This document shows positions 3,748 through 44,801 of a DNA stretch of 57,938 bases, one piece after another (within the stretch, counting starts at the first letter, position 1; every line of letters starts with the position of its first letter). A model generated the notes under the pieces. The model had not been told where the DNA came from, did no database searches, and saw only the letters and a list, made by a program, of their open reading frames with translations. The stretch spans positions 1 to 57,938 of the forward strand of contig MEOD01000093.1 of the NCBI GenBank assembly GCA_001768555.1, given 5' to 3'. The position numbers and the translations under genes are program-made. The DNA comes from Bacteroidetes bacterium GWF2_29_10 (lineage in GTDB: Bacteria > Bacteroidota > Bacteroidia > Bacteroidales > GWE2-29-8).

Positions 3748-4533
3748 TTAGTTACAAACTACCTGATTTTTATATTTTAAATTAATTACCGAATATTTAT
3801 CCCATCCCATATATATTATTCCATGTTGATAAAATGCTAAAAGTTTTCGGAATTTATTCTCTAAGTTTTCAACATTACCAAGTATAATTACTTGATTTCC
3901 TATTTTTGGGATTAATTCTATCTCATTTTGTTCGTTTATATATATTTGCTCTATCATTCTTGACCATAATGAGTCATTATCTATATACTTGCAAACGGTA
4001 TAAATGTCTGAAATAATATTGTTTTGCATTAAACTTTTTTTGTCTTTATCCACAATAATATTCTTTGAAGCATAGTTTGCATAATTTTTCTTTATAAAAC
4101 CATTTGCATATATTACTCTAGGAGTAAAATTTTCAGAGGTATATAAAATAGCTCCATTATCATCAATAAGAAAGTTTTCATAATTGCTATTAATAATTCT
4201 TACTATTGGCTTGCGGTGTTCTATATCTATTCTTAAAATACCATCTATTGTTAAATATACATTTGCTTTTTTTACATAATGCATGCTGCTTATAATGCTC
4301 TCTATTTTATTTATATTAATATCTTTTATTTTTGTTTCTAATATGTTTATTTTTTGGTCTTGTAATATTTTTAAAATCTCTTCTTGTGTGTAATACTTTA
4401 AATTATCGTTAATAGAAATCTCTACTGATTGACACAAAGAATCATTATGAGAAATTGTAACAAAGCTAAATATTGTAATAGAAACAACCAATACAACAAC
4501 TAATTTTACTATATACAATACCCTATTCATCAT
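3748..4533 (-). CDS. ftsQ: Cell division protein FtsQ/DivIB
   Basis: This is a bitopic divisome protein of 261 residues. One transmembrane helix lies at about residues 8-28, with the rest outside the membrane: a POTRA-like segment at about 35-110 (ILETKIKDININ...VKKANVYLTIDGILRI) and a beta domain after it. Sequence conservation in FtsQ is poor, so the call rests on this topology and on position between murC and ftsA. The start overlaps the murC stop by 4 bp, which suggests translational coupling. Confidence 0.88.
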   Translation of the reverse strand: MMNRVLYIVKLVVVLVVSITIFSFVTISHNDSLCQSVEISINDNLKYYTQEEILKILQDQKINILETKIKDININKIESIISSMHYVKKANVYLTIDGILRIDIEHRKPIVRIINSNYENFLIDDNGAILYTSENFTPRVIYANGFIKKNYANYASKNIIVDKDKKSLMQNNIISDIYTVCKYIDNDSLWSRMIEQIYINEQNEIELIPKIGNQVIILGNVENLENKFRKLLAFYQHGIIYMGWDKYSVINLKYKNQVVCN

Positions 4534-5888
4534 AGATATTTAGTAATTAAAAATTTCTTAATATATATAATCAAGCTATCAATGTCACCTGCTCCAAATG
4601 TAACCAAAACATCTGTTTCTAATTGATTAAGGTGTGATAGTAGTTTCTCTTTCGTACTTAAATGCTTTTTACATTTTAATCTATCATATATTATCTGAGA
4701 ACTAACTCCCTCTATTGGCTCTTCTCGTGCAGGATATATATCTAAAAGAATAACTTCATCTAATTTATTTAAACTATCTGCAAATTCTTTATATAAATCT
4801 TTAGTTCTTGAATATAAGTGTGGTTGGAAAATCCCAGTTATCTTCTTTCCTTTATATATCTTTTTTAATGATTTAATTATTTTTTTTAATTCTTCAGGAT
4901 GATGTGCATAATCATCTATGTATACAATTTTTTCAGTATTTATTATATATTCAAATCTTCGTTTTACTCCCTTGTATTCACTAACCGCTTTTTTTGCAAT
5001 TTCAACATCTATGTTCATTAATTTTGCTACCGATAATGCTGCTGTAATATTTTCTATATTATGCTCTCCATGTATAAATGTTGATATATTTACAACATCA
5101 CTACTAACAAAATCAAAACTACCCCCATTCTTGTCAATAATAATATTTTTCGCTTGAAAATCAGCAATATCTGATGTTGAATACGTGTAATTCTTTATAC
5201 TTTGTGAAACATTAATATTTTTTATTCTTTTATTAGTAATTAAAATTCCATTATCTTTAATTTTAGAAGCAAATTCATTAAATGCTAGTTCTATATTTTT
5301 AATATTTTTATAAATATCAAGATGATCAGTATCAATAGAACTAATAACAGATATATTTGGAGATAATTGCAAAAAAGATCTGTCATATTCATCTGCTTCA
5401 ACAACAAATATTTTCGGCTTATTTATGTCTGACATTATTAGATTAGATTTATAGTTACACATTATGCCGCCTATAAATCCAAAAACATTAACACCTGCTT
5501 GCTTCAGTATATGTGCTATTATTGATGATATTGTTGTCTTTCCATGACTTCCTGCTACAGCAATTGTAAAAGCATCTTTTGTAATCAACCCTAATATTTC
5601 TGCTCGTTTATATATTTTGTAATTCTCTCTTTCCAAATAGTTATAAATATTTGAAACCTTTGGCACAGCAGGAGTATATACAACAAATTTTAACTTTTTA
5701 GGGAAATAATCGATACTATCTTCATAAAAAACATTAATACCCTCCTTAATTAGTGCTTCTGTTAATGTTGTTTGGGTCTTATCATAACCATATACATTAT
5801 AATTAAGGCACTTATAATACCTTGCTATAGCACTCATTCCTATACCTCCAATGCCAAGAAACAATATATTAGTATCTCTATTTTCCAT
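4530..5888 (-). CDS. murC: UDP-N-acetylmuramate--L-alanine ligase MurC
   Basis: MurC adds L-alanine to UDP-MurNAc, the first peptide step of peptidoglycan synthesis, in the cytoplasm. The N-terminal UDP-binding loop GIGGIGMSAIARYY, the ATP loop AGSHGKTTISS (about residue 111) and the later DDYAHHPEELKK are diagnostic. The 452 residues give all three Mur ligase domains, unlike the neighbouring truncated murD. It overlaps murG by 11 bp and ftsQ by 4 bp. Confidence 0.96.
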   Translation of the reverse strand: MENRDTNILFLGIGGIGMSAIARYYKCLNYNVYGYDKTQTTLTEALIKEGINVFYEDSIDYFPKKLKFVVYTPAVPKVSNIYNYLERENYKIYKRAEILGLITKDAFTIAVAGSHGKTTISSIIAHILKQAGVNVFGFIGGIMCNYKSNLIMSDINKPKIFVVEADEYDRSFLQLSPNISVISSIDTDHLDIYKNIKNIELAFNEFASKIKDNGILITNKRIKNINVSQSIKNYTYSTSDIADFQAKNIIIDKNGGSFDFVSSDVVNISTFIHGEHNIENITAALSVAKLMNIDVEIAKKAVSEYKGVKRRFEYIINTEKIVYIDDYAHHPEELKKIIKSLKKIYKGKKITGIFQPHLYSRTKDLYKEFADSLNKLDEVILLDIYPAREEPIEGVSSQIIYDRLKCKKHLSTKEKLLSHLNQLETDVLVTFGAGDIDSLIIYIKKFLITKYL

Positions 5889-6993
5889 TTATATCATTAA
5901 TAATATATTCAACAATATTTTGCGTTGCATTAGGAAATGCAAATTTTTTTATATTTTCAGATAAGTTTTTCATTAAATCATCGTCACTTATAATATCTAA
6001 TGCTTTTTTTATGATTAATCGTCCAACTTCGTTTTCTCCAATCATTATAGCTGCCCTTTTCGCTACAAGAGTGTTTGCATTAACTGTTTGATGATCTTCA
6101 GTAACATTGGGTGATGGAACGAGTATTGATGGCTTTGCATTTATTGCTAATTCTGAAATTGCTATTGCACCAGCTCTAGAAATAACCAAATCTGCAATAT
6201 TATAAGCATAATCCATCCTATCAATAAATTCAGTAATTACTATTCCCTTTCTATTAACATCATTTTTGTAATCATATTTAAACGTTTTTCCTGTTTGCCA
6301 TAATACTTGAATATCTTGATTTATAAAAGAATTAATATGTTTATGAAAAACATTATTGATTGTTCGAGAACCTAAACTCCCTCCAAGAACTAGTATTGTT
6401 TTTTTATTATCTAATAGCCCAAAATATTTTAAAGCCTCTTCTCTATTTATATTATTCTCTATGATATCCTTTCTTATAGGATTACCCGTAAGAAGTATTT
6501 TATTTGCATTAAAGAATTTATCCATATTAGGATAAGCTACAAATATCTTTCTTACATATTTACTTAAAAGCTTATTAGTTATTCCTGCATAAGAGTTTTG
6601 TTCCTGTATATAGCATTTTTTACAAAATAGTGAAGATACAAAAAGTATCGGACCACTTGAATATCCTCCAACACCAATTACAATCTTAGGATTAAATTTT
6701 ATTATTATTATTAATGAATGTATTAAGCTAAATATGATTTTGCATATTGTTTTTATATTCTTGATTTTTGATTTTCTGTTAAATCCTTCAATCCATAGAC
6801 CTTTTATATTATATCCAGCTTCAGGAACTTTTTTCATTTCCATGCGATTTGACGAGCCAACAAACAATATATTTTCTTGTTTAATAGATAGTTTATCTTT
6901 CAGCTCATTGGCTATAGCTATAGCTGGGAATATATGCCCACCTGTTCCACCTCCTGCAATTATAATTTTTATATTTGAACTATCCATTAACAT
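5878..6993 (-). CDS. murG: UDP-GlcNAc transferase MurG (lipid II synthesis)
   Basis: MurG moves GlcNAc from UDP-GlcNAc to lipid I at the inner face of the membrane to make lipid II. The Gly-rich acceptor-binding loop IIAGGGTGGHIFPA near the N-terminus, GVGGYSSGP and the C-terminal domain ILVLGGSLGSRTINN...ISRAGAIAISEL match GT28 family MurG. The length is 371 residues. The first ATG (6993) overlaps the ftsW stop as TAATG, indicating coupling; an ATG two codons later is also possible. Confidence 0.96.
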   Translation of the reverse strand: MLMDSSNIKIIIAGGGTGGHIFPAIAIANELKDKLSIKQENILFVGSSNRMEMKKVPEAGYNIKGLWIEGFNRKSKIKNIKTICKIIFSLIHSLIIIIKFNPKIVIGVGGYSSGPILFVSSLFCKKCYIQEQNSYAGITNKLLSKYVRKIFVAYPNMDKFFNANKILLTGNPIRKDIIENNINREEALKYFGLLDNKKTILVLGGSLGSRTINNVFHKHINSFINQDIQVLWQTGKTFKYDYKNDVNRKGIVITEFIDRMDYAYNIADLVISRAGAIAISELAINAKPSILVPSPNVTEDHQTVNANTLVAKRAAIMIGENEVGRLIIKKALDIISDDDLMKNLSENIKKFAFPNATQNIVEYIINDINGK

Positions 6994-8192
6994 TAAAACT
7001 CCTCTGTTTTTATATCTTTACTAACACTTAATATAATTCCAAGCGAAATACTAGAAAACCAAATAGAAGTACCTCCCATACTTATGAATGGTAATGGCTG
7101 ACCTGTTACTGGAAATAGATTTACAGCTACAGCCATATTTGTCATACCTTGAAAAACTAAACTAAAACTTAAGCCAAATGCTAACAAGGCTCCAAATGTT
7201 CCAGAACTATTTATTAATATAATTAATGCTCTATACATAACAACTAAATATAAAAATAAAACAACAAACCCTCCAACAAACCCATACTCCTCTATTATAA
7301 TAGCATATATAAAATCAGAATAAGGATGAGGTAAAAAATTCCTTTGTGTACTATTACCCGGACCTTTCCCAAAGATTTTTCCTGTTGCTATTGCTATTTT
7401 GGATTGCTCTGCCTGATAATTTGCATCTGAAAATCGGCCTCTTTTCAAATCACTATTTTCATCATTGCTTTTTGCATTAACAAATGTATCTATTCTTTTT
7501 TTCCATGTTCCTAAACGACCTGTATCTGTAGATTTATTTAATATAAATATAAAAACTAGAAACGAAACTATTCCAATCAAACCAATACTTAATAAATACT
7601 TAATATTAACATTGCCTACAAACATTAAAACAATGCATGTTACAAAGATTAATGCTGAGGTAGAAAAATTTGATTTTAATATTAGTCCACAGATAATAAA
7701 TATTGGTAATAGTATTGGTAATATTGCGTTTTTAAACTCAAATTGATTAAAAGTCTTTACATTGTCTTTATATATGGATAATGCTCTTGCTACATACATT
7801 ATTATTGCCAATTTACCCAAGTCTGATGTTTGAAAAGATATCCCTAGAAAAGGAATACTTAACCATCTGTCAGCTTCATTTATATTTGTTCCCATAAAAT
7901 GGGTTAAAACCAATAATATTATAGCTAAAAATAAGGCTAAAACTGTAATTATTGCGAACTTCCTATAAGGAATTAAATGAGTCAAAAATATAAGTAAAAA
8001 TCCAAAAACAACAATACTTAAATGTTTAAATAGATAATACGCAGTATTACCTCCTTGATACTTATAAGCTAAAGTCCCAGTAGCACTATATACTGTAAGT
8101 ATTGAAATTATAAATAAAAGGATAACTACTCCCCAAATAGCTTTATCTCCTTTTGTAAAATAAAATAATATGTTTTTTGTCTTTTCTGACAT
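6993..8192 (-). CDS. ftsW: Peptidoglycan polymerase FtsW (SEDS family)
   Basis: FtsW is the septal glycan polymerase working with the class B PBP. The protein (399 residues) is polytopic, with about ten hydrophobic helices. It shows SEDS features: DLGKLAIIMYVAR, the FGKGPGNSTQRNFLPHPYSDFIYAIIIEEYG region (quoted in part as GPGNSTQRNFLPHPYSDFIY) and LPFISMGGTS near the C-terminus. It starts 6 bp after the murD remnant and overlaps murG by one base. Confidence 0.95.
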   Translation of the reverse strand: MSEKTKNILFYFTKGDKAIWGVVILLFIISILTVYSATGTLAYKYQGGNTAYYLFKHLSIVVFGFLLIFLTHLIPYRKFAIITVLALFLAIILLVLTHFMGTNINEADRWLSIPFLGISFQTSDLGKLAIIMYVARALSIYKDNVKTFNQFEFKNAILPILLPIFIICGLILKSNFSTSALIFVTCIVLMFVGNVNIKYLLSIGLIGIVSFLVFIFILNKSTDTGRLGTWKKRIDTFVNAKSNDENSDLKRGRFSDANYQAEQSKIAIATGKIFGKGPGNSTQRNFLPHPYSDFIYAIIIEEYGFVGGFVVLFLYLVVMYRALIILINSSGTFGALLAFGLSFSLVFQGMTNMAVAVNLFPVTGQPLPFISMGGTSIWFSSISLGIILSVSKDIKTEEF

Positions 8193-8198
8193 ATATGT

Positions 8199-8729
8199 TT
8201 ATAAATTTCTTACTGATTTAATGAAAGATTCCCCTCGTTCTGCATAATTCTTATATAAATCAAAACTTGGACAACCTGGCGAAAACAAAACTATATTATC
8301 TTTTTGACCAATCCTATAAGATAAAATAACAGCATCTTCTATATTTCTAACATTAGAAATATGTTTATCTTGATTCAAAAAATAATTTTCTAACATATAA
8401 TTTTCTTCACCCATATAAATAATTTCCTTAACCTTATCCCTAACTAAATCTTTTGTCATATTTAACTCACTTATATTTATTTTGCTTCCTATAATCCAAA
8501 TAATATTTTTTGTCATTTTCTCAAGTGAATACCATGATGAATTTATATTTGTTGCCTTAGAATCATTTACATAATCAACGCCTTTTATTTTTGCAACAAA
8601 TTCTAACCTATGATCATCAGATTCAAAATTACATAAAGACAACTTGATTGGATTTTTTCTTAATTCTAATAGCTTGTCATTAATTACTGTAAATATTGCG
8701 GCCTTCTTTTCCTTTATAACTATACTCAT
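8199..8729 (-). CDS. murD: MurD, C-terminal domain only (truncated ligase)
   Basis: The protein has only 176 residues, where MurD normally has about 440-450. It aligns by eye with the C-terminal domain: HRLEFVAKIKGVDYVNDSKATN, in part, with the conserved DSKATN, then WYSLEKM, and near the end LFSPGCPSFDLYKNYAERG, corresponding to the usual SPACASFD-FKN-E-RG. The UDP-binding N-terminal domain and the central ATPase domain with its GKT loop are absent. The DKGNDY-like stretch usual after IIWIxGG is replaced by SKINISEL. The ATG lies 1 bp after the mraY stop and the frame is open to its end, so this is a clean deletion rather than a frameshifted gene. As it stands it cannot catalyse D-glutamate addition. 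It could be a decaying remnant, half of a split enzyme, or a domain with a new role. Confidence 0.85.
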   Translation of the reverse strand: MSIVIKEKKAAIFTVINDKLLELRKNPIKLSLCNFESDDHRLEFVAKIKGVDYVNDSKATNINSSWYSLEKMTKNIIWIIGSKINISELNMTKDLVRDKVKEIIYMGEENYMLENYFLNQDKHISNVRNIEDAVILSYRIGQKDNIVLFSPGCPSFDLYKNYAERGESFIKSVRNL

Positions 8730-8730
8730 C

Positions 8731-9993
8731 TTATCTTAATTTTAATGTTACAATTGTTAATACTGCGAGAATTATACCGATAATCCAGAATCGAAGAACT
8801 ATTTTAGGTTCTGGGTATCCTAATTTTTGAAAATGATGATGTAACGGAGACATTTTAAATATTCTTCTGCCTTCTCCATATTTTTTCTTTGTGTATTTAA
8901 AATAACCAACTTGTATGATTACTGATAGATTTTCGACTAAATAAATTCCACATAAAACAGGTATTAATAATTCCTTTCTTATTATAATTGCAAATACAGC
9001 AATTATACCTCCCAAAGTAAGGCTTCCTGTATCTCCCATAAATACTTGAGCAGGAAACGTATTATACCAAAGAAATCCAACACAAGCTCCAACAAAAGCA
9101 CTAATGAATATTGTTAATTCTCCTGTATTTGGAATGTACATAATATTAAGATAGTTTGCAAAAATTGTATTACCAGAAACATAAGCAAGAACACCTAATG
9201 TTGTCCCTATTATTGCAGAAGTACCCGTTGCAAGTCCATCTAACCCATCTGTAATATTTGCACCATTTGATACAGAAGTAATTATTAATATAACAATAGG
9301 GATGAATATTAAAAAAGCCCACTTTTTATAATCATTACCTATAAATGAAATAAGAACTGCATAATCAAATTCATTGTTTTTAAAAAATGGTATAGTTGTT
9401 TTTGTTGAATTAATAGATTCGTTTTTAAATAATTTATTATTTGTATTTATGCTTTCTACTTTGAATAAATTATCATCATTTATAGCGATTACTTCTTTAT
9501 TTTCTGTTACCTTTTCTTTTATTACGACATTGTTGTTAAAAATTAAAACACTACCTATTATAATCCCTAAACCCACTTGACCCATAATTTTGAACTTTCC
9601 TGCAAGACCTTCTTTATGTTTTTTAAATACTTTTATGTAGTCATCAGTAAATCCAATTATTCCTAACCATATAGTTGTTATTATCATTAATATTATGTAA
9701 ATATTATCTAATTTGGCTAATAATAATGTAGGTATTAATATTGAAGCAATAATAATAATTCCTCCCATTGTTGGTGTGCCTTTCTTACTCATCTGACCTT
9801 CTAAACCTAAATCTCTTATAATTTCGCCAACTTGCTTTAATTGTAAATACTTTATTATACTTTTACCCCAAAATAATGATATTAATAAAGAAAATATTAA
9901 TGCCATAGCAGCTCTAAAAGATATATATTGAAACACTCCTATTCCTGGTATGTTATACAGCTTGTGTAAGTATGTAAACAAATGATATAGCAT
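8731..9993 (-). CDS. mraY: Phospho-MurNAc-pentapeptide transferase MraY
   Basis: MraY transfers phospho-MurNAc-pentapeptide to undecaprenyl phosphate, giving lipid I. It is polytopic (about ten helices, 420 residues). Signature stretches are [13 protein letters not shown], the Asp-rich [38 protein letters not shown] and the HHH loop [12 protein letters not shown]. About 50 extra residues near 160-210, rich in Asn and Lys, sit in a loop; a longer MraY of this kind is usual in Bacteroidota. It is followed 1 bp later by the truncated murD. Confidence 0.97.
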
Positions 9994-9996
9994 ATT

Positions 9997-11454
9997 TTAC
10001 AAGTTTATAAATTCAGTTAATATTTCTTTATCATCAAAATGAGATTTAATCCCTTTAACATCTTGATATGTTTCATGACCTTTGCCTGCAACTAAAATAA
10101 TGTCATTTGGTTTTGCGATTAAACATGCCGTTTTTATTGCCTCTCGTCTATCACTTATAACAATATACTTATTGTCAAAAGTGTATTTTTTTATCCCTTC
10201 TAACATATCTTTTATAATATCTTCTGGATTTTCAAATCTTGGATTATCCGAAGTTATTATTGTTTTATAACTTTTCTCACAAGCTATTTTCGCCATCTCT
10301 GGACGCTTCCCTTTATCTCTATCCCCACCACAGCCAATTATTGTTATAATATTTTGACTGTCATTTTTTGTAATATTTATAGTCTCCAATACATTTTCTA
10401 AAGCATCTGGAGTATGAGCATAATCTATAATGCCTTTTTTGTTTTCACTTCCTTCTATCTTTTCAAAACGTCCTTTTACCGAACCTAAAATACTTAATAT
10501 TGTTAACATTTTCTCTGTTTCCTCACCAATTATTGATGCAACTGAATAAACTGTCAGTAAATTGTAAGCATTAAAAACCCCACATAATTGAGTATATAAT
10601 TCTTTATTTTCAACATTTATTTGCATTCCTTCAATTGTATTTTCTACAATTCTAAATTTGAAGTCTGCTATATTATTTAAACTATATAGGTATTTTTTTG
10701 CTTTGGTATTTTGTAACATTAAATTGCCATTTCTATCATCTTTATTTGATAGTGCAAATGCAGTACTTGGCAAATTATCAAAAAATAGTTTCTTTGCATT
10801 AATATAATTTTCAAAAGTTTTATGATAATCTAAATGGTCATGTGTAATATTGGTAAATACCCCTCCAAAAAAGCTTATTCCATCTATTCTTTTTTGAATA
10901 ATTGAATGTGAGCTAACCTCCATAATACAATATTGACATCCTTTTGAGACCATAAGATTCAAATATCCTTGCAATGTTATCTGATCAGGGGTAGTATGTG
11001 TTGCTTGAAATTCTTCTTTATTTACATATACGGCTACTGTACTTAATAAACCAACATTATATCCTAAACTACTCAGTAATTTATATAGAAGTGTTGCGGT
11101 TGTTGTTTTTCCATTTGTTCCTGTTATTCCTATTACTTTTATTTTGTCTGAAGGATTATCATTGAAGTTCGCAGCAATAATTCCTAATGCATGATTTGAA
11201 TCTCTTACAACTACATATATTATATTTTCATTTAATTGTAATGGTAATTTTTCTAATACAATGACTTTTGCTTGATTTGCTATTGCTTGATCTATATAAT
11301 CATGCCCGTCAACATTAGTACCTCTTATAGCAAAGAAAATACCGTTATCTAATAAATCTCGTGAATTAAAAGATAATTTAGAAATCAGACAATTGTCATA
11401 ATTTATCTTTTCAATTACTTCTACATCTATTAAAACTTGGTCTAATTGTTTCAT
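9997..11454 (-). CDS. murE: UDP-MurNAc-tripeptide synthetase MurE
   Basis: MurE adds the third amino acid to UDP-MurNAc-L-Ala-D-Glu. The ATP loop TGTNGKTTT is at residues 111-119, and TTPDQITLQGYLN and THDHLDYHKTFENY are family motifs. The substrate motif is DNPR (in TSDNPRFENPEDII, near residue 400), the form seen in enzymes that add meso-diaminopimelate rather than lysine, so a DAP-type wall is inferred. The length of 485 residues is normal. The start abuts the ftsI stop. Confidence 0.95.
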   Translation of the reverse strand: MKQLDQVLIDVEVIEKINYDNCLISKLSFNSRDLLDNGIFFAIRGTNVDGHDYIDQAIANQAKVIVLEKLPLQLNENIIYVVVRDSNHALGIIAANFNDNPSDKIKVIGITGTNGKTTTATLLYKLLSSLGYNVGLLSTVAVYVNKEEFQATHTTPDQITLQGYLNLMVSKGCQYCIMEVSSHSIIQKRIDGISFFGGVFTNITHDHLDYHKTFENYINAKKLFFDNLPSTAFALSNKDDRNGNLMLQNTKAKKYLYSLNNIADFKFRIVENTIEGMQINVENKELYTQLCGVFNAYNLLTVYSVASIIGEETEKMLTILSILGSVKGRFEKIEGSENKKGIIDYAHTPDALENVLETINITKNDSQNIITIIGCGGDRDKGKRPEMAKIACEKSYKTIITSDNPRFENPEDIIKDMLEGIKKYTFDNKYIVISDRREAIKTACLIAKPNDIILVAGKGHETYQDVKGIKSHFDDKEILTEFINL

Positions 11455-29621: not shown

Positions 29622-32600
29622 TTATTGCTTAATGAACTTTCGCTTTGCAACAGTATTGTTTGATTCAATATTAATAAAGTATATTCCAGGTGAAAGTTTT
29701 GAAACATCAATAGCTTTTGTATTGTTGTTTTGTGTTGATATGTTTTGTTTAGTATTTATAGTTTCACCGAGAATATTAGAGATGAATATATTTCCATTAA
29801 AAGAAGATTTGAAAGATACATTAATTATGTTTTGAGCTGGGTTTGGGTATATAGCAAAAGCGTTAAGTATATCAAGCTCTTCGATAGAGTTATACTCTAA
29901 CACTTCTATAGTAATATATTCTGAAACAGAAGCGCATTGGTTTGTAGCTATAAGCATAATTTTATATTCACCATCTTGAGAAAATATATGTTCAGGATTT
30001 GTTTCTGAAGAAGTTTGAGTATCTCCAAAATCCCAATAGTATGAGTCTGCATTAGAAGAAAGATTTTCAAATTGCAAAGTTCTTCCTGTATTTTTAAAAG
30101 TGAAAGAAGATATAGGAACTGGGTTAAGAGTTACGTTCACACCATCAACAATAATAACACAACCATTTCTATCGGTAACGGTAACATCATAGAAGCTTTT
30201 AGGCTGAGTAACTTTAATGTATGGAGCAACAGATCCACTTGACCAAACATAAGATAAGTATTTGTTAAAGTCAGGGTCATTATCAATAAATAACATTAGA
30301 GTATCGTTTTGACAAGCGGTGTTGTTTGGTTTATCTGAAATGACCAAAGGTGATTCTGTTTTAAATACTTTCACTTCAATAGAATCAGAAATTAGGACAC
30401 AATTATTATTATCAATCACGGTTATAAAATAATAACCAGGATCATTAACATTAATTGTTTGGGTAGAGCTGGAGTTATTCCAAGTGTATGAAGCATAGTT
30501 AGGTTCAACTGTTAAAGATAATGTTACATCAACGGGGTTTGTATTAAGCGTGTTATCGCAGAATCCTGTTTTATTATCTTTTGCTGTAATAATAGGTTTC
30601 ACAACATCATGAACATTTACTATTACAGTGTCAACGTCAAGACAACCATTAGGTGATTTTATTGTAAGAGTATATGAAGTAGTAACTTTTGGAGCTACTA
30701 ATGTTTTAGTGTCATATCCTCCATTACTCCATATAATGGTATTGCCTAAGTGTGTAGAAGCAGAAGCATCTAGAATTACAGGCAAAGCATTAAAGCAAGT
30801 AGTAAAGTCTGTTCCTGCATCGGCTATAGGAGCTTTTTTTACAAAAATATTAACAGTATCGGTTATACTACAAATATTTGTATCGGTTACTGTGACTATA
30901 TATTGTTTGTATTCATCTGTAATAGTTTGAGGATTAAATGCAATCATTTGTCCAGTTAAACCTTGTTCGCTCCATACATAAGCAAAACCTCCATAAGCAG
31001 CTAAAATAAGTTCGTTATTTGAACAAATTGTATCATAATTAGAATACATTGCAGTATAAGGAAGAGGGTTTACTTTTACTGTTATAGAGTCAATATCAAC
31101 ACATCCAAATTCATTTTGAGAAGTAACTATATATTTGGTATTATATTTAGGACTAACAATAATAGTATCGTTTTTATCTCCTGTATGCCATTCGTATGAT
31201 GACGCTCCAGTAACAATAATAGTGTCTATATCTTGTAGACAAATTATTTGTTTGCCAGTAACAATTGAGTTAGGATTTGGATGAACTGTAATAACGACTG
31301 AATCAATAGCCGTGCATTTATAGTAATTAGTAATGCTTAAAGTATATGTTGTAGTTATCAAAGGAGTAGCTATAGGGTAAGGAATAGAGTCATTGTTAAG
31401 ACCTAGAGATGGAGTCCATTTATATTTTACGCCACCTTGACCATTAAGATAAATTGATTTATTAAAACATATAGCACTGTCCATACCAGCATCAACGAAA
31501 GGTACTGGCAATACTTTTACTGTTTTTTGTGCAGAATTAAAACACCCATTTATGTCTGTAATAGTAACTGTATACTGGGTTGTGTCTTCAGGAGAGATTG
31601 TTAAAACTGCATTAGTAGAATTATCTGACCATAAGTATGTATCAGTTGCTTGTGCTGATTTATTTTTTATCTTAACAGTGTCGCCAAAGCAAATAAGAGT
31701 ATCAAATCCTAGATTAATAAATGGTAAAGGATTAACAAAAACTACAAGAGTATCATTGTTTACACAACCATTTACATCTGTAGCATAAACAGCATAAGCT
31801 TTATTGTTTTTAGGAAATAGGATCGGGGAGTCCGTATTTTCATCTATTATATCAGTATTAGGTATCCACGAATAAGTTAAGCCTCCAGTGGCAGTTATAG
31901 TCCCTTTATTTAGAGTATCTCCTACACATATTGATAAGTCATTACCTGCATTAACAATAGGAAGAGGATTTATAAATACCACCACATCGTCAGTATTACT
32001 ACAATTATTATTATCAATTACAGTAAGTGTGTATGTTGTGGTTATGGTTGGATAAACTTCCATGTACGCAGTATCGTATTGGTTTGACCAATAATAGTAT
32101 TCTCCTCCAGAACCAACTAAACTAGTCGTAGCCCCAAAACAAATACTTGTATCCTTCCCAGCATAAGCAACAGGTAAAGGATTTACTTTTACAAATACGG
32201 TATCTATACTAATACAAATATTGTCATTAATAGTTACAGTATAATAAGCATCAATAGTTTCTTTTATGACTATACTATCTTTCATATTGCCATTACTCCA
32301 TGAGTAAGATAATCCTCCAGTTGCAGATATTATTACTTCCTGATTGTAACAAACGGTAACATCATCTTGAGCTTTGGCAACAGGGAGAGAAACAACAATA
32401 TCATCAGCAGCTGAACAATTATTTGTATTAACAACAGTTACAATATATGTGGTTGTAATTGTTGGCGTTGCTAAAGGGTTTTGAATACTGTCATTGTCAA
32501 TGCTATTTGCAGGTGACCAGTAGTAATTTATTCCCCCTACTGCATTAAGCAATATATTTGTTCCATTGCAAATCATAGTGTCATTTCCTGCAAAGGCCAA

Positions 32601-35600
32601 TGGAAGGTCATTTACTTTAAGAATAATATCATCTGTATTTGAGCAACCATTACTGTCTGTAACTGTAACAATATATGTGGTTGTAATCATTGGAAATGCA
32701 TTTGGGTTGTATACGGTGTCATTACTTAAACCTGCTTGAGGCAACCATTTATATTTTACTCCAAAAGAAGAGTATATTTTTATATTATTACCATAACATA
32801 TAGCTGTATCATTTCCTGCATTAACAATAGGCAGTGGATTGATTTTAATAGACAACGATTTAGTATTAATACATCCATTTGTATCGGTAACTTCTACTGT
32901 GTAAGTTGTATTTGATGTAGGGGCAGTATTAGGATTTTTAACGTTATTATAACTTAATCCAGTTGAAGGATACCAAGAATAGTAAGCAGCAGTAGTAGAA
33001 TTTGCTATAATATTAGTGCTATCGTAAATGCAAATAGTATCATTTTTGCTTACAGTTATTGTAGGTAAAGAAAGCACCGTAACTACAACATTGTCTGAAG
33101 CAGAGCATTTATTAACATCAGTAACTGTAACGGTGTATGTTGTATTAACTGTAGGGGAAGCTAAAGGATAAGGAATTGTTGAGTCAGATAGAGTTTTTGC
33201 TGTGTTCCATTTAAACACATCTCCCATATTGAACCCAGATAAATTAAGATATTCGAAGCTTCCTTGACATATTGAGATATCCTCTCCTGCAGATATAACA
33301 GGAAGATTGTTAATATATACCCATATATCATCTGTACCTGAACAACCATTAATATCTTTTGCTGTAATAGTATAGTATGTGTCAAATTTAGGGTTCACAA
33401 CAAGTGTGTCATTTGTAGAAGCATTGTTCCAAATGTAACTCACTCCTCCATTAGCTATTAGATTTACTTTCTTTCCATAACATATTGCAGTATCAATTCC
33501 TTTTGCTATACTTATTGTAGGAAGCATATTTACAGATACATTTATTGAGTCCATAGTGCTACAACCATACAAACTAACAGTTACAAAGTATTTTGTTGTA
33601 GTATCAGGTGATACATGAATAATGCTATCATAATCTCCATTATCCCATATATAATTATCTCCACCAGAAGCAAATAAATAGAGCGAATCATTCAAGCATA
33701 TACTTGCGTCAGTTGTTTTCATTGTTACTTTTGGAACTATTACTCTAACGCCTACTGTATCCATATCAGAACAACCGTTGGCGTCAAATACGGTAACTTC
33801 ATATATTATGGATATCGAAGGTGTAACATTAATAAACTTGCCAGTATCACTTGTGCTCCAATAGTATGTTTCGCCACCAGAAGCAAGAAGGGAAATACTT
33901 TCATTTTTGCATATTGTTCTATCTTCTCCTGCATTAGCAGTAGGTAAGCCATTAATTATGATATTAACTTCATCGGTTGCACTGCATCCATTAATATCTG
34001 TTGCAGTAACTTTATATGTAGTGTTTTCTGTAGGATTAACATAAATTGAATTGCTTGTTTTTCCATTATCCCAAGTATAATAGTTTGCTCCAGTTACATT
34101 TATGTTAACAGAATCATTTAAGCAAAGATAAACTAAATTGTCAGTTTTTATTACAGGGATGGCATTCACAATGACTGTTATATAGTCTGAAGCGGAACAA
34201 CCATTAATGTCAGTAGTGGTTAGCCTATAAATAGTGTTGTTGGTAGGGAATACTAATGGCGTTGTAATCGTAGAATCGTTAATACTTTGTTGATTATCCC
34301 AAGTGTATGTATTCATTACACTACTGCTAGTAGCAATAAGCATTATGGTGTCTCCAATACATAGAGAAGTATCGGTTCCTGCATCAATATTTGGAATTTG
34401 GAATACACTTACTACTATAGCTCCAGATTTTTCACATCCATTTTTGGATACAGTGACGGCATATATGATTGATGCTGTGTCCCCAATGGTTATTGCTGAA
34501 TCACTAGCTCCATTACTCCATTTATATGAATCTCCACCTGAAGCCCATAGGCTTATTACAGAACCTCTGCAAATATTAGTATCATTAGAATAAGTAATGT
34601 TAGGATATTCAAAAACATTTACAACAACTTGAGCAGTTGCGGTGCAATTACCTGTATTATTTGTAAGGGTTAATGTGTATGTAGTTGTTCCTGTAGGAGA
34701 TGCGATAGGTGTTGCAGAGTGATTATCATCTAAAGAACTTGCTGGTTCCCATGAATATAAGTCTGCACCTGAAGCTGAAAGAGAAACAGTTTGCCCAATA
34801 CATATAGATTTATCAGAAGTTACATTTACCGTAGGTAGCGGATTAATGGAAACAATAACGCTATCATTAGCGGTGCAATTATATTGGTTTTGAGTAGTTA
34901 CATAGTAAGTAGTTGTGTATGCTGGTTTGACAGTAATACTTGCAATAGAATCACCTGTATTCCAGTAATAAGCATTTCCTCCTGTAGCAGTAATTGTTAC
35001 AGAGTCATTAAAACAAAGTGATTGATCTCCACTAACAATTAATATAGGATTATCATAAACAGTAACAATAACATCATCTGTATCTGTACAACCATCTTTT
35101 GTAACGGTAAGAATATATGTTTCTGTAGATGACGGCTTAACTGTACTATTTTTTGTATTGTCTCCACTTGTCCAATTATATAAATCCATTCCATAATTAG
35201 CTTTAATGGTAACAGTATCACCAAAGCAAATTTCTCTATCAATACCTGCATCTGCAACTGGAATTTGATTTACTGCTACAGTAACTGTATCATATCCTTT
35301 ACATCCTTTATTGTCGGTTCCTTCTACAAAATATATTATAGTGTCTGTAGGACTTACTATAATTTGCGCTAATGTGCTTCCATTGCTCCATGTATAATTT
35401 GTAGCTCCAGATGCAGTGAGAATGGCAGAATCGCCTAAGCATATTATTGTTTTATCTTGAGTTACATTAACATCAGGCAAAGGGTTAACAGTTATAAATA
35501 CTCTATTTGTTTCTGAACAGCCATTATTATCTTTTACAGTAACAGAGTAATACACACTAACTGTAGGAGAAACAATAGCTGTATCTTTTGTAAAGTCATT

Positions 35601-38600
35601 TATTGCTTCTTTAGGAAACCATGTATAAGTGGAGCCTCCTGTAGCAAATATTGGGGTGGAACTATTCATACATATTTCTTTATCAGGGCTAACTGTAACT
35701 ATTGGAAGAGGATTAACAGTAACGTCTGTTACATCTGTATCACTACAACCTTTACTGTTTGTAATAGTAACAGTGTATGTGGTATTTATAGTTGGTTTTG
35801 CCCAAGGATTAAAATATATATCTTTATTTAAAGAACTTGAGTTATCCCATTTGAATATCACGCCTCCAAATGCATGAAGTTGCACGCTATCTCCAATACA
35901 AATAGTCCCTGATGGACCTGCATCAATAACAGGCAATGGATTAACATTTACTGACATTGTATCCATATCAGAACAACCATTGGAATCATAACCTGTTACA
36001 GTATATAGCGTTTTTGTTGTTGGTGCAACAATAACATTTGCAGTTGTTCCTACATTATCATCCCAAGTATATGTGTTAGCTCCTAATGCACTAAGAGTAA
36101 TAGAACTGCCAATACACACTTCGTTGACAAGCCTGTCTATTGTTACGTCAGGCAATTGAAATACATTTAGCACAAAATCATCAGTAGCTGAACAACCGTT
36201 AGCATCTGTTCCTGTAATTGCATAAATAATGGAAGCTGTAGGAGCAACAATAATGCTATCTGTAGTTTCTGCTGTACTCCAAAAGTAGCTATCAGCATTA
36301 GTTCCTTTAAGAGTAAGTGTAACGCCTCTACAAATATAATTAGTATCTGCAATAATTTCCACAACAGGAAGAGGATTTACTACAACTTCAATTGTGTCAA
36401 TATTAGTGCAATTATTATCATCAGTTCCTGTAACTATATATGTAGCCGAAACTGTTGGTAATATTTCAAGATTCTCAATATTTCCAAGATTAACATCATC
36501 CCATAAGTATGTTTTAGCACCAGTAACAGATATAATTGTTGTTGTCCCATAACATATAGTATCTGGTAACGCATTAGCAATTACATTAGGCAAAGCATTA
36601 ACTTTAATCTCTATTGAGTCAATATTACTGCAAGTGTTGGTGTCTATAACAGACACTAAATATTTAGTGTCTGTTGAAGGTTTAACAAGTATTGAATCAT
36701 TAGTATTGTTACTAATTATTTCGGATGCAAACCATGAGTAAGTTGTCCCGCCTGTAACAGTTAATAATGAGGAGTCAAAGTTACATATAGTTGAAATGCC
36801 TGTTATATTAATAGAAGGTAAAGGGTTGACAGTAACGACAACAGAGTCTGCATCAGAACACCCATTAATATCTGTAACAGTAACAATATACTGGTCTGTA
36901 ATATTTGGTAATATTGTAATTGTTGCCGTATCAAGACCTGAGATAATCGAGGAATTATTAGCCCATAAATAATCTATAGCTCCAGATGCTGTAAGTACAA
37001 CCGTATCATTTAAACAAATAGTTTTATCAATTCCTGCATCAGCTGTAGGTAGAGGGTTTATTATTATTGCAATTTCATCAGTTGCAGTACAGGAGTTTGA
37101 TCCAGTAATAGAAACAGAATAAGTGATATTTATAGTTGGCTTTGCAACAGGTTTTGCAATATTAATATCATTTAATGTTAGGTCATTAGGAGACCATGTG
37201 TATGTTGTTCCATTTGTAGCAGTTAAATTAATACTATCACCAAGACATATCGTGGTTTTATCTGCAGTGATTTTTGTTGTGATAGAATCAACCATAACTA
37301 CTATTGTATCATAAGCAGAGCAATTATTTTCTATACCAATTACTGTGTATATTGTTGTTGTATCTGGTTGTACATAAATAGAATCCTTTATTTCTCCCGT
37401 ATTCCATAAATAATTAGGAGCTGAGGCTACTACAAGCAAAATACTGTCATTTTTACATATTGACTTATCTGCTCCGACAGATATACTTGGAGCAAGGTTT
37501 ACAGTAACAAATACGCTGTCAATATTAGAGCAGCTATTAGAATCGGTAACATTAACATAATACATTATAGAATCTGTTGGAGTTACTTTTATTACTGGTA
37601 TTGCTTCTGTGGTGCTCCATGAATAAGTTTTACCTCCAGTAGCTGTAAGAGTTGCAGTATCTCCCTTACATATTGTAATGTTGCTTCCTGCGTCAGCAAT
37701 AGGGAGAGTATGAACAGTAATAGGAATACTAAGATTAGCAACACATGTATTAGCTCCTGCAATTATTACGGAGTATGTTGTTGATACTTGAGGTGTTGCA
37801 ATAGGATTAGATGCAGAAGAGTCAGATAAAGAACCATTTTGAGGTGTCCACAAATAAGTAATACCTCCCGTAGCACTTAATTGTAAGGAATCTCCAAAAC
37901 ATATAGTGTCTTTTGATGTGTAAATCTTAGCATCAACAGAGTCAACGGTAACAACAACTGTATCATAATTTTTACATATTCCATCTGAAACTGTAAGTAT
38001 ATATGTTGTTGAATAAGGAGGGCTTATTCTAATAATTGCTGTATCTTCTCCACTACTCCATGAATAAGTTGTTCCTCCAAAACCAGCAAGGAATATTGAG
38101 TCACCTTTACATATAGTCCTGTCCCAACCAGCATCAGCTAAAGGAAGTGTTAATGTCGTAATAAGTATGCTATCTTTAGAGTAGCAACCATTATCATAAT
38201 ACCCTGTTACATATATATAGGACGTATTATTTACAGGTATTTTAATAGATTGAGAATTTGCTCCAGTACTCCACAAATAAGTATCTGCCCCAGATGCTGT
38301 TATAGTAATAGTATCTTTAGAGCAAATGGTTGTGTCATTGCTAATTGTTAATACAGGCAAAGAATTTACTACAATTATAGCTGTATCAGTAGCTATACAA
38401 GCTAAAGCATTGGTTACTGTAACATAATAAGTTGTTGTATTGAGTGGCATTGCCATAGTATTTTGAGCTGAGGAATCAGATAAAGAACCATTTTGAGGTG
38501 TCCATATAAAGCTAATACCAGTATCAACAGAAAGGTTTATAGAGCCACCAAAGCATATTGTATCATCAGAGATATTTATTTTGGTATAGAATGAATCGAC

Positions 38601-41600
38601 GGTTATAATCAATTCATCTGTGCTTGAGCATAATCCATCATTAACAGTAAGGGTGTATGTTGTTGTTATGTTAGGTTTGAAGTAAACTGGGTTTCCTGTT
38701 TGTCCGTCAGACCATTGATAGTTAATTCCTCCAGATGCTGTAACTTGTGTTGAGTCTCCGTAACATATAGTTTGGTCTACTCCTGCATTTGCGATAGGGA
38801 GTTCAGCTACAGATACTAATACTGAATCTTTAGCAGAGCAATTATTATCAGTTACAGTTACATAGAATAAAGAGTCTGTTAATGGTAAAACAATAGTTGA
38901 TTGAGTATTAACTCCACTGCTCCAAGAATAAGTAATACCTCCAGTAGTAGATAATGTAGTGCTGTTACCTTTGCATATGGTTTGATCAGCTCCTGCTTCT
39001 GGAATAGGCAAAGCATTTACGGTTACAACTTGAGTAACAGAGTCGTAGCAAATAAGTTGCTTTTTCCCTACAATAGAGAAATCATCAATACGCCAGCCTT
39101 TATATGTTCCAGAAGCGTCTGTTGAACCAATGCCAAATTGTATTCTAAATAAAGTATTTTTATCTGCATAAGTACTAACGTCAAAAGTTTTTAAAGTCCA
39201 TGAATTTTCTTGTATAGGTGTTGTTTGATTGGAATATATTGTTTGCCAGTTACCTTTAAACACTTCTAATACAGCAGCATCATTAGAGCTTTCAAAAGCT
39301 GAATTACTATAGAAAGAAATTTTTACTTCTTCATAATCCAAACAGTTAATCCAAGGTGATAGGAAGTATTTTTTTGTCAGATTATTCTCATAGCAACTGT
39401 TAATATAAGTTCCTAATATTCCATTATCTGAAGTGAAAGGAGAATAATCCTGAGTAGGGTTTTGATATGTTCCATCGCAAATACTTCCTGTAGAAACAGG
39501 TGCAATATCCCAGCCTCCTTCTCCATAACCTGACCAACCTTTTGTTTTAGTACTAAAATCATCAAAGAAAAAATTACTAACAACAGTGAATGTGTCGCTA
39601 TTAACATATGTTATGGTATGGGTTCCAACGCCAGCAAGTTCTGGAGAAAATATACTATCATTGATTATTCCTGGTCCATAAAATACTCCTCCACTATGTT
39701 GTCCTTTTACAACAACAGAAGGTGCATTTTGACAATATTCAGCATCTAATCCTGATATTGATAAATTTAAACTATTGACAGTTACTATAATTTGTTCTGT
39801 AGCAATACAAGTTCCCTTGGTTCCAGTTATGTTATAAGTGGTAGTTGTTAAAGGTGTGACTGTTATACTACTATTGGTATATCCTCCTGTCCATATATAA
39901 TTATCTGCTCCATAAACATTTAGAGTTATACTATTTCCTTTGCATATAGTTTGATCATCACTTGCATTAATAATTAAAGGATTAACGTATACAACAAGGC
40001 TATCCTTAGAAATGCAAGCTCCTGAAGTAGCGTAAATTATATATTTTGTTGTTGAAGGAGGAGTTACAGTTGGTGTTAGTGTGTTTACACCACTAACTAT
40101 TGTTGCAGTAGGTGTCCAAGAGAAAGTAGTTCCATTACTTGTTGCATTAAATTGTATGCTTGCTCCAGTGCATATACTAACATCTGAACCTGCTTCAACA
40201 GTAGGAGGAGCGCTTACTATAATATTAACGGAACCAGTAACAGTACAACCATTAGAATTAGTAACAGTAACAAAATAATTTGTTGTTATTGTAGGAGAAG
40301 CAATAGGTGTTGCACTATTAATATTGTTTAAAGTTCCATCATTAGGAAACCATGTGTATGTCACTCCATTTGTAGCTTTGAGCATTGTTGTATCTCCACA
40401 TACAGAATAACGATTAGCCGTAACGATAGTTGTTGCAACTGGATATAGATTTACTACAACGCTTTTTGACCCTTTGCATCCATTAGCATCGGTTACAGTA
40501 ACTGAATAATTAGTAGAAACTGTAGGTGTCGCAATTGGGTTTGCTATATTTGCATTACTTAATCCTGTTGATGGCGACCAAATATAGTTTGTTGCCCCAG
40601 CGTATGTGGCATTAATGTTGGTGTTTCCTTCTGGACATATGGAGCCTCCCCCTGTAATAGTAATTACAGGTAATGGATTAACAGTAACTACAACATCATC
40701 AGTAGCAGAACAACCAAACCCATTAGTAATTGTAACTATATATGTCGTGTTTGTTGCTGGATTTGCTATAGGATCGTAAATATTTATAGCACTTAATGCT
40801 GTTGCTGGCGACCAAGAATAAGATGTTCCTCCAAAAGCACTAAGTGTTGTACTATTCCCTTGACATATAGTAACATCAGCGCCAGCACCTCCAACAGGAG
40901 GAGTATTAACTGTAACAGATACATTCCCAGTAACAGTACAACCATTAGAATTAGTAACAGTTACTAAATAATTCGTTGTTGTTGTCGGGGACGCAATAGG
41001 TGTTGCAATATTAATATTGTTTAAAGTCCCATCATTAGGTAGCCAAATATATGTTCCTCCATTGGTGGCTTTAAGCCTAGTTGTATCTCCTTTGCATATT
41101 GCAGTTCGATTTGCTGTAACAGTTGTTGTTGCAGCTGGATATACTGAAATTATTATACTTGCCGTATTTGAACAAGTATTAACATCCGTTCCTGTAACTT
41201 TATAAGTTGATGTGCTGTTAGGGTTTACATTTTGAATAGATGAAATATCGGCTGTATGTCCCCAAATATAAGTCTTAGCTCCTGATGCTGTAAGTTTTAC
41301 AGTTGTTGCTGGACACACATTATTTTTGTCAGATGATATAATTACTGATGGCAAATTATTTACAGTAACTACTACATCGTCAGTAGCCGAACAACCGAAA
41401 CCATTAGTAATTTTGACTATATAAGTTGTATTTGTTGCTGGGTTTGCAGTAGGATTGGAAATATTTGTAGCACTTAATCCTGTTGATGGTGACCAAGAAT
41501 AAGAAGTACCTCCAAAAGCATTAAAAGTTGTACTATTTCCTTGACATATAGTAACATCTGCTCCAGCACTTCCAACAGGTGGAGTGTTAACTGCAACAGA

Positions 41601-44600
41601 TACATTACCAGTAACAGTACAACCATTAGAATTGGTAACAGTTACTAAATAATTTGTTGTTGTTGTCGGGGACGCAATAGGGTTGCTAACAGTTGTATCA
41701 TTTAAAGAATTACGTGGGATCCATGCATATGTAATCCCTCCAGAAGCTTTAAGCCTAGTTGTATCTCCTTTGCATATTGCAGTTCGATTTGCTGTAACAG
41801 TTGTTGTTGCAGCTGGATATACTGAAATTATTATACTTGCTGTATTTGAACAAGTATTAGCATCCGTTCCTGTAACTTTATAAGTTGATGTGCTGTTAGG
41901 GTTTACATTTTGAATAGATGAAGTATCGACTGTATGTCCCCAAACATAAGTTTTAGCTGCTGATGCAGTAAGTTTTACTGCTGTTGCTGGGCATACATTA
42001 TTTTTATCTGAAGATATAATTACTACTGGCAAATTATTTACGGTAACTACTACATTATCTGTGGCGGTACAACCAAAAGAAGTAACTTTTACGATATATG
42101 TGGTAGTTATAGAAGGGCTTGCTTTAGGGTTTGCAATATTAGCGAAATTTAATCCATTTGTTGGAGACCAGGAATAAGATGTTCCTCCAGAAGCATTAAG
42201 AATTGTAGAGTCTCCTTTGCATATAGTAGCATCTGCTCCCGCATTTGCAATGGGTATAGGGTTTACGGTAACTGTAATGGTTGCTGTGTTTGTGCATCCG
42301 TTAATATTTGTTCCAGTTACTTTATACGTTGTTGTAATAGTTGGGGCAACTTTGCTTCCTGTACCAAGAATAATGTCCCAAATATAAGAGACGGCGCCTC
42401 CTCCTGTAAGTGTTGTTGAATCTCCTTTACATATTGGGTTAGGGCTTGCAGAAGCAGTTACATTAGGCAAAGCATTTACAGTTATAGTAATGCTTGAAGT
42501 GTTTGTACAACCTTTTACATCAGTACCTGTAACAGTATACGCTGTTGTAGTAGTAGGATTTACTATTTTAGGGTTTACAAAACTAGAAGGATTATTCCAA
42601 GCATAAGTATTAGCTCCAGTTCCTGTAAGATGTAATGTGTCATTTTTGCATATAGCTGTTTTTGTAACACTTATTCCAACTGTAGGCAATGGATTTACTT
42701 TTATAATGTATGAAGCAGTGTTTTTGCAAGCATTTGCGTCGGTTCCTGTTACTGTATATGTAGTGTTTATTATTGGTTTTACATATTTTGATGCTCCAGA
42801 TCCAAGAGAATTACTCCATATATATGAAGTTGCTCCAGAAGCTGTAAGTCTTGAAGAGTCAGTATTGATACATATTTCATCTTTTGTTGCTGTAATCGTA
42901 ATATTAGGCAAAGGATTAACAAACACCTTTACAGATGCAGTTGTTGTGCATGATGTTATTGTGTCTCTGGCAGTAACGATATAAGTAACAGTTGAGGTAG
43001 GTATAACATTCTTTACAATAGCTCCAGAAGCACCATTACTCCAAGTATATTTTACAGAAGCTCCTCCAGAAGCTGTAAGTTGAACTGTATCATTTTTGCA
43101 AATAGTATCTTTGTCAACAGTCGCAGTAATAATAGGCAAGGCATTAACTGTTATTCTTGAGGAAGCCACATTTGCACATCCTTTTGTGTCTTTTCCAGTA
43201 ACACGATAGGTGGTATTTATTGTAGGAGAAACTGTTTGTATTGCTCCTGTATCTAAACCATTATTCCATGTATAAGTACCTTTAAAGCCAGCTCCAGATG
43301 CGGTAAGAGTTATGCTATTCCCTTCACATATTGTAGCATTTGAAGGCGCAATACTAATATTAGGCAAAGGGTTTACAGTTACTATAACAGAGTCAAAAGC
43401 ACTACAGCCCCCAGCGTTGGTTATAGTTACGCGATAAGTTGTTGTTATAGTTGGTTTTGCCCAAGGACTAATAGTATCTTTATTGCTAAGAGTTGACGAA
43501 GGTGCCCAAGAATATGTGGATGTTCCTCCTGCTAAATTTTTTGCAGTAAGTTGCACACTATCATTCACGCAAATAGTCTTATTAGCTCCTGCATCGGGAT
43601 TAACATCAGCCCAAACATAAGTGGAAGCTGTAGACTGGTTATTGCAAGTGGCAGTAAAAGTTCCTGAAACTTTAAAATCATCAATACGCCAACCTTTATA
43701 TTTATTGGTTGCATTTGTTGGTCCTATCCCAAAACGAACACGAAAATTAGAATTATTATCGGCATAAGTAACATTGTTAAAACTAGGAAAAGACCAGCCA
43801 AAGTTATTGACAGCCACTTTTGACATTTTATGCCATAAATTATCTGTTCCCAGTACTTCTACAGAGAATGTGTCTAAAAAAGTACTAAAAGATGAACTTT
43901 GTGCAAATTGAATTGTAACATTTGTAAGATTAGAACAATTAATTACAGGGGATGTTATATAATATGTTTGAGGAATATTAAGATTATAACAGCTATTAAT
44001 AAAAGTTCCCAGAACAATGCTATCGTTTGATGTTAATGTCGCATCATCTGGAGGTTGAGCAGACCCGACACAAGCAATAGCAATGTTAGGGTTTATTGCT
44101 TTTCTTTCCCATCCACCAGAATCTAATGCTCCTACATCATAACCAGTCCAACCTTTATCTGTGGAAAAATCATCTTGAAAAGAAGTTATTATTATCCATG
44201 GATTTTCAACATAATCATAAGTGATTGTTTTTGAGCCAATGCCTGCAACAGAAGGTGTAAAAGTTGTAACACCTAATACAGTTAATATACCGGGGCCCGA
44301 AAATGTTCCTCCAATAGGATTCCCTGTTAAAGTGACAGCAGGATTACTAAAACAATATTTTGAAGCAAGCCCAGAAATAGCACCATTTTGAGTGGCAACA
44401 TAAACCATTACATTGTCTGTAGCTGTAAGTCCTCCACTAGTTACTTTAACAGTGTATTTTGTATCTATTATTGGTTTAGCATAAGGGTTTGAAGCAGAGG
44501 TATTAGTAAGTCCTGTTGATGGGTACCAGGAATAAGTATACGTGCCAGTTCCTCCTGTTGCAGTAGGGGTGCCTCCAATAATAACACTATCTCCGGAACA

Positions 44601-44738: not shown

Positions 44739-44768
44739 ATTCAGTGCCAAAAAGTAAAATAAAAACAT

Positions 44769-44801
44769 CAAATATACGAATTTTTTTTAATAAATATTCA
44801 A
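44769..44801 (-). promoter_or_regulatory. Promoter of the giant surface-protein gene
   Basis: On the minus strand TATATTTG (44776-44769) matches TAnnTTTG, with TTG (44801-44799) 22 bases upstream. Transcription would begin near 44762, which supports translation from the ATG at 44738 with a leader of about 24 bases. Confidence 0.7.

Follow-up and report, generated by a model that had tools for sequence, protein, structure and literature searches.

The window analysed here is a stretch of 57,938 nucleotides from Bacteroidetes bacterium GWF2_29_10, and it contains a dcw cluster in which the gene at the place of murD, here called MurD-C, encodes only the C-terminal part of the protein (Table 1). 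MurD is an essential enzyme and an antibiotic target. The ATG of MurD-C lies 1 base past the mraY stop codon, and its own stop codon lies 6 bp ahead of ftsW. A profile search revealed that MurD-C matches only positions 287-440 of the MurD profile TIGR01087 (E 9e-38), with a score of 130.5 bits, which is below the curated cut-off for full-length MurD (211.95). The initial annotation, made from the sequence of the window, had described a MurD reduced to a C-terminal part of 176 aa in an open frame, starting 1 bp after mraY among intact dcw neighbours. The ORF and the profile match bear out this description, and mraY, murE, murG, murC and ftsW are indeed all full length. Its equation of the 176 of about 440 residues with the C-terminal domain was right in that only the tail is left, but has to be refined: MurD-C is the last ~40% of MurD, comprising the whole C-terminal domain and also the final ~35-40 residues of the central domain. 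The P-loop and the ATP-binding central domain are absent, as the ORF begins past both.

The AlphaFold2 model of MurD-C (pLDDT 83.7; confidence low in residues 1-6, and pLDDT about 46-62 across residues 1-40) has the fold of the MurD C-terminal domain, and its best PDB matches in Foldseek were all MurD (E 8e-13). MurD-C thus resembles MurD (TIGR01087) in its homology over the last ~180 residues, its place in the dcw cluster and the fold of its C-terminal domain, but is without the UDP-binding domain, the P-loop and nearly all of the ATP-binding domain. MurT is a Mur-ligase-derived protein that lacks one domain of the classical ligase. The MurT of MurT/GatD (PDB 6h5e) gave a weak fold match to MurD-C; however, MurT retains the catalytic central domain and acts together with GatD, whereas MurD-C is a C-domain only.

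Table 1. Features of the dcw cluster around MurD-C (positions in the window)
Feature	Position	Strand	Evidence
Stand-alone MurD C-terminal-domain gene (MurD-C), 176 aa, between mraY and ftsW	8199..8729	-	ORF, profile match, AlphaFold2 model
MurD-C residues 1-39: helical N-terminal segment with homology to the end of the MurD central domain; begins where full-length MurD has its conserved internal Met	8613..8729	-	Alignment
MurD-C residues 40-176: MurD C-terminal domain fold	8202..8612	-	pLDDT mostly 84-97; Foldseek to MurD E 8e-13
D56 codon of MurD-C (E. coli MurD D317), in 51/51 C-domain genes	8562..8564	-	Alignment
mraY, 420 aa, full length, directly upstream of MurD-C	8731..9993	-	ORF
ftsW, 399 aa, full length, directly downstream of MurD-C; ftsW reference for survey and tree	6993..8192	-	ORF
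murE, 485 aa, full length	9997..11454	-	ORF
murG, 371 aa, full length	5878..6993	-	ORF
murC, 452 aa, full length	4530..5888	-	ORF

Distribution of C-domain genes and repeated truncation of murD

A profile built from seven C-domain genes was run against 393 genomes of the same order, with a second listing for weaker cases. The surveyed genomes are relatives of one another, many of them MAG-like drafts; families were counted by group codes. C-domain-only genes were found in 51 of the 393 genomes, representing 18 families. Wherever the flanks were assembled, the gene lies downstream of mraY and upstream of ftsW, often with gaps of just a few bases on either side. The products are about 176-199 aa in length, 182 aa being the commonest, and their start corresponds to a single conserved Met inside full-length MurD (MTLEELALQGK). 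After inspection, G103 and G149 (open frames shortened by contig ends), G201 (apparent frameshift) and G053 (272 aa, at a contig edge) were excluded, while G006 and G358 were kept despite nearby contig ends because there is no MurD homology upstream. At related C-domain loci, no N-terminal or central-domain remnant was found within 400 bp upstream. A class-wide search revealed no clearly short MurD frames in other orders among the best matches listed, and a scan of named genomes returned solely remote full-length MurDs. Searches of a literature collection with few subscription journals found neither a stand-alone MurD C-domain nor a Bacteroidota MurL described.

That 51 independently assembled genomes of 18 families share this truncated gene and its locus rules out an assembly deletion at the mraY-murD junction, which the initial annotation had raised. 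Full-length murD sisters occur in 8 of the 18 families with a truncated gene. In one case the two forms occur within a single genus: in g7 of family f6, G120 and G006 have the truncated form and G212, G285 and G344 a full-length murD. The initial annotation had held that a close relative with a full gene would speak against a genuine reduction; such relatives exist, but each reflects one of several truncations that took place separately, and the reduction is not refuted by them.

The tree built from the mraY and ftsW proteins shows 14 changes of truncation state, of which strongly supported branches force 12. The C-domain tree gives 12 changes and places truncated genes from families f13, f72 and f113 with full-length sisters. 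The changes (at least 12) on strongly supported mraY and ftsW branches, together with the full-length sisters in 8 of 18 families, speak against a single ancient truncation. Because a full-length MurD cannot re-form by mutation, most of the changes are best read as separate truncations, and transfer of the whole cluster may lie behind some of them. murD is accordingly best read as having been cut to the same C-terminal piece at least about a dozen times.

The C-domain was not found in one genome with MurL, G076 (L165, C160), in which ftsW lies outside the dcw cluster and its neighbours are unrelated; this is possibly a complete loss of the C-domain. In three further MurL genomes (G021, G125 and G153), ftsW of the dcw cluster is missing from the assemblies, so that they are uninformative on such loss.

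MurL, MurI and MurD2 in the window's genome and its relatives

The genome to which the window belongs is assembled in 110 contigs (2.8 Mb, 92% complete). Its other Mur ligases are MurE, MurC, MurF, an 838-aa protein of the size of MurF-Alr, and Mpl; a complete MurD was not found in this assembly, nor was any match to TIGR00067 (MurI). A MurL homologue is present at C108:25150-26421 (NF041275, E 4.6e-75), scoring 252 bits where the equivalog cut-off, which was set on Xanthomonadales, is 700. This MurL (L066 1435-2706) ends ~30 residues short of most relatives, and the profile match continues beyond the TAA; a few relatives are likewise short. MurD2 was not found in the 92%-complete assembly, although G001 of the same family has it. 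FolC, also present in G001, was not found either, so the MurD2 gap is in line with missing sequence, though MurD2 may truly be absent. The suggestion that a full MurD lies elsewhere therefore applies to the relatives, which have a second full-length MurD-like ligase, but not to this genome, in which only MurL was found.

MurL was detected in 124 of the 393 genomes and MurI in 249. Just two genomes, G279 and G339, match both, and the MurI match is weak in each (E about 1e-21). Fifty of the 51 C-domain genomes carry MurL and lack a confident MurI. When only genomes with a visible dcw murD frame were counted, murD was truncated in 50 of 116 genomes with MurL versus none of 108 with MurI and without MurL (Fisher p 1e-17, a value that overstates the association because the genomes are related).

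Nearly every C-domain genome has a second full-length, divergent MurD-like ligase, usually beside MurL. Among 12 relatives inspected, this MurD2 adjoins a ~460-aa MurL-family protein in 10, and it carries K348R in all 12 and D182E in 11. In Xanthomonas oryzae, MurD2 ligates L-Glu and MurL epimerises the product, and K348R and D182E are the published L-Glu-type changes of MurD2 (PMC8788868, PMC5808125). The two reviews name Proteobacteria and actinobacteria as MurD2/MurL taxa, with remote orthologues in a fungus, cyanobacteria and an amoeba; Bacteroidota are not among them (PMC8788868, PMC5808125). Our case is like the X. oryzae pathway in that a MurL homologue is present and MurI absent in the window's genome, and in the K348R and D182E changes in the MurD2 of the relatives. 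It differs in the retained MurD C-domain, which is not described in those sources (PMC8788868, PMC5808125). Ligation of L-Glu by the Bacteroidota MurD2 and epimerisation by MurL are predicted activities. The data suggest that, in about one in three sampled genomes of one Bacteroidota order, an L-glutamate/MurL route has taken over from glutamate racemase, and such a route would bear on inhibitors of MurI and MurD.

In family f78 (G078, G174, G255 and G319), the matches to MurL and to the MurD2 C-domain share one open frame of 885-921 aa (e.g., G078:C12:29769-32177), which suggests a putative MurL-MurD2 fusion protein. Where the dcw MurD of a MurL genome is full length, it keeps every catalytic motif and is therefore probably still an enzyme. 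G013, G027, G014, G028 and other MurL genomes have such a full-length murD with all catalytic motifs, and no confident MurI was found in them; their MurD would need D-Glu from another source, or may act in recycling.

Given these associations, the C-domain might serve the new pathway as a regulatory or structural subunit that binds MurD2 or MurL and has no role in the membrane complex. The presence of MurL in 50 of 51 C-domain genomes, the adjacency of MurL and MurD2 in 10 of 12 relatives and their shared frame in f78 would all agree with this. However, the C-domain gene stays between mraY and ftsW and was never observed adjoining murL, and the association with MurL is equally expected if MurL just renders the MurD activity dispensable. 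A further counter-example is G016 (L141, C4:294000-305000; 98% complete, 2.1 Mb), which has MurE, MurF, Mpl and FolC; no MurC, MurD, MurD2, MurL or MurI was found in it, and it nonetheless keeps a divergent C-domain. This argues against a role limited to MurD2/MurL, and we regard the subunit explanation as unlikely. In G016, it looks as if UDP-MurNAc-tripeptide were supplied only by recycling via Mpl.

Selection and residue conservation in MurD-C

Purifying selection, for which the initial annotation had proposed a check, is evident in the C-domain genes. In five close pairs with unsaturated dS, dN/dS was 0.06, 0.08, 0.06, 0.11 and 0.17, comparable to ftsW and mostly somewhat above mraY of the same genomes; between distant pairs, with dS near saturation, it was as high as 0.4. 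Several C-domain genes evolve fast and form long branches on the C-domain tree, so the constraint differs among lineages.

The residues that contact the ligands have mostly been lost. By alignment to E. coli MurD, whose numbering is used here, H267 is kept in 6%, N271 in 18% and K348 in 22% of the 51 C-domain genes, compared with 97-100% in full-length MurDs. H267 and N271 are positions that we take to contact the adenine/nucleotide, and K348 is the Lys of MurD that contacts D-Glu. D317, by contrast, is present in 100% of the C-domain genes, and W72, W84 and F175 (alignment numbers) in 94-98%. The loss of the contact residues from a fold that is kept indicates that MurD-C is not a ligase, and we infer that it is kept for something other than ligation.

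It might be argued that MurD-C is a slowly decaying pseudogene whose short ORF merely maintains translational coupling or spacing between mraY and ftsW, since ligand-contact residues have been lost, evolution is fast in some lineages and the gaps to mraY and ftsW are often a few bases. Against this, dN/dS in close pairs is like that of ftsW in the same genomes, about 180 codons are intact in 51 of 51 genomes, and residues of the fold core are near invariant; coupling alone would explain neither the conservation of the protein sequence nor the same start across separate lineages. The pseudogene explanation is therefore very improbable. Still less credible is a split MurD, also raised in the initial annotation, with an N-terminal half encoded elsewhere that cooperates with the C-terminal half. 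The open frame, the intact neighbours and the absence of MurD2 from the window's genome assembly are compatible with it, but no N-terminal or central-domain half was found in that genome, relatives have complete MurD2 proteins, and the tail is without the nucleotide- and D-Glu-contact residues, K348, H267 and N271 being lost in most C-domain genomes. We accordingly read MurD-C as a conserved, non-catalytic protein rather than a broken gene, and it probably has a second function.

A putative internal start in full-length murD and the proposed role of the C-domain

The Met at the truncation point is present in 97% of the full-length MurDs of MurL genomes and in 87% of the others, the latter class comprising, in the tree and codon tests, 26 MurI genomes and four with no match to either MurI or MurL. 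Roughly two in three stand-alone genes also retain the L and the G that follow the Met in the MTLEELALQGK motif. In full-length murD of MurL genomes, the codons near this Met make the RNA less structured than synonymous alternatives would, by +2.0 kcal/mol when the window is centred 10 codons upstream (all 21 of the 21 MurL families being positive, p 1e-6), +1.5 at the Met itself and +1.7 at 10 codons downstream. No comparable increase was seen in other windows within 120 codons of the Met, and no structure signal was found there in the remaining genomes. An excess of A over the nine codons after the internal Met amounts to 0.22 per codon in MurL genomes (19 of 21 families), compared with 0.15 at the true starts of stand-alone genes, 0.12 at the murD starts of MurI genomes, about zero at control sites, and a weak 0.08 after the internal Met in MurI genomes. 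The C-domain of full-length MurDs is also better conserved relative to the other two domains in MurL genomes than in MurI genomes (identity difference 0.11 vs 0.05). Shine-Dalgarno sequences were not enriched at the internal Met, and the TAnnTTTG motif of an internal promoter was not found.

These codon statistics, which emerged after several exploratory tests, support a putative internal start at the conserved Met of full-length murD in MurL lineages. Codon choice near the domain boundary may also reflect something else, for instance an RNA element or an internal promoter. It is also possible, though we hold it to be the lesser chance, that there was no earlier internal start: the Met would be structural, and each deletion would have taken the sole handy in-frame ATG near the domain boundary. 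The conservation of the Met in MurI genomes too (87%), where the start-like codon signal is weak, fits such an origin, but that signal is peculiar to the full-length genes of MurL genomes and recurs in 19-21 of 21 families.

The explanation we propose is that the MurD C-terminal domain has a second role and that an internal start at the conserved Met of murD would yield it as a separate protein of ~182 aa. MurD2/MurL would have replaced MurD in these lineages, with the C-domain as the sole part kept, and deletions of the 5' two thirds of murD, on at least a dozen or so occasions, would then each have left the nested gene immediately after mraY. That MurD-C is such a non-catalytic remnant with a second role, nested in murD and spared after the takeover by MurD2/MurL, appears fairly probable. 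The stronger claim, that murD is two genes in one, a ligase and an internally started, non-enzymatic C-domain protein needed for envelope synthesis, with the ligase part deleted repeatedly once redundant, has in our judgement about an even chance of being right. The new role suggested in the initial annotation thus remains the best reading of the conservation, while the role itself is inferred. Our guess is that MurD-C most likely works within the cytoplasmic peptidoglycan machinery, as a binding partner or scaffold for MraY, MurG, FtsW or other Mur enzymes. MurD, MurE and MurF have been reported to bind MurG and MreB, and MurG has been proposed as a scaffold (PMC6420597, PMC4929429). A C-domain whose gene has stayed near mraY, ftsW and murG could bind within such a complex.

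Parallel reduction of MurD to its C-terminal domain under selection implies that the domain does something beyond catalysis. Knock-outs in standard model bacteria cannot part such a role from the essential ligase activity, but species with MurD-C alone make it directly testable; if the explanation is true, repeated deletion of the rest of MurD has exposed a hidden second function of its C-terminal domain. A partial parallel is the CTP1L endolysin, where a single gene is reported to give rise both to the full-length enzyme and to a second, C-terminal product that lacks the N-terminal part (PMC4777826). CTP1L differs in being a phage endolysin whose C-terminal product complexes with the full-length enzyme (PMC4777826), and in having no counterpart to the parallel loss of full-length MurD.

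Elsewhere in the window, a 5049-aa ORF (29622-44771, - strand) encodes numerous Ig_7 domains along with PKD domains and a Por secretion tail. A type IX secretion sorting domain is thus encoded in the same window as MurD-C, which, like the relatives, points to the Bacteroidota; the product is predicted to be a giant secreted type IX adhesin-like protein.
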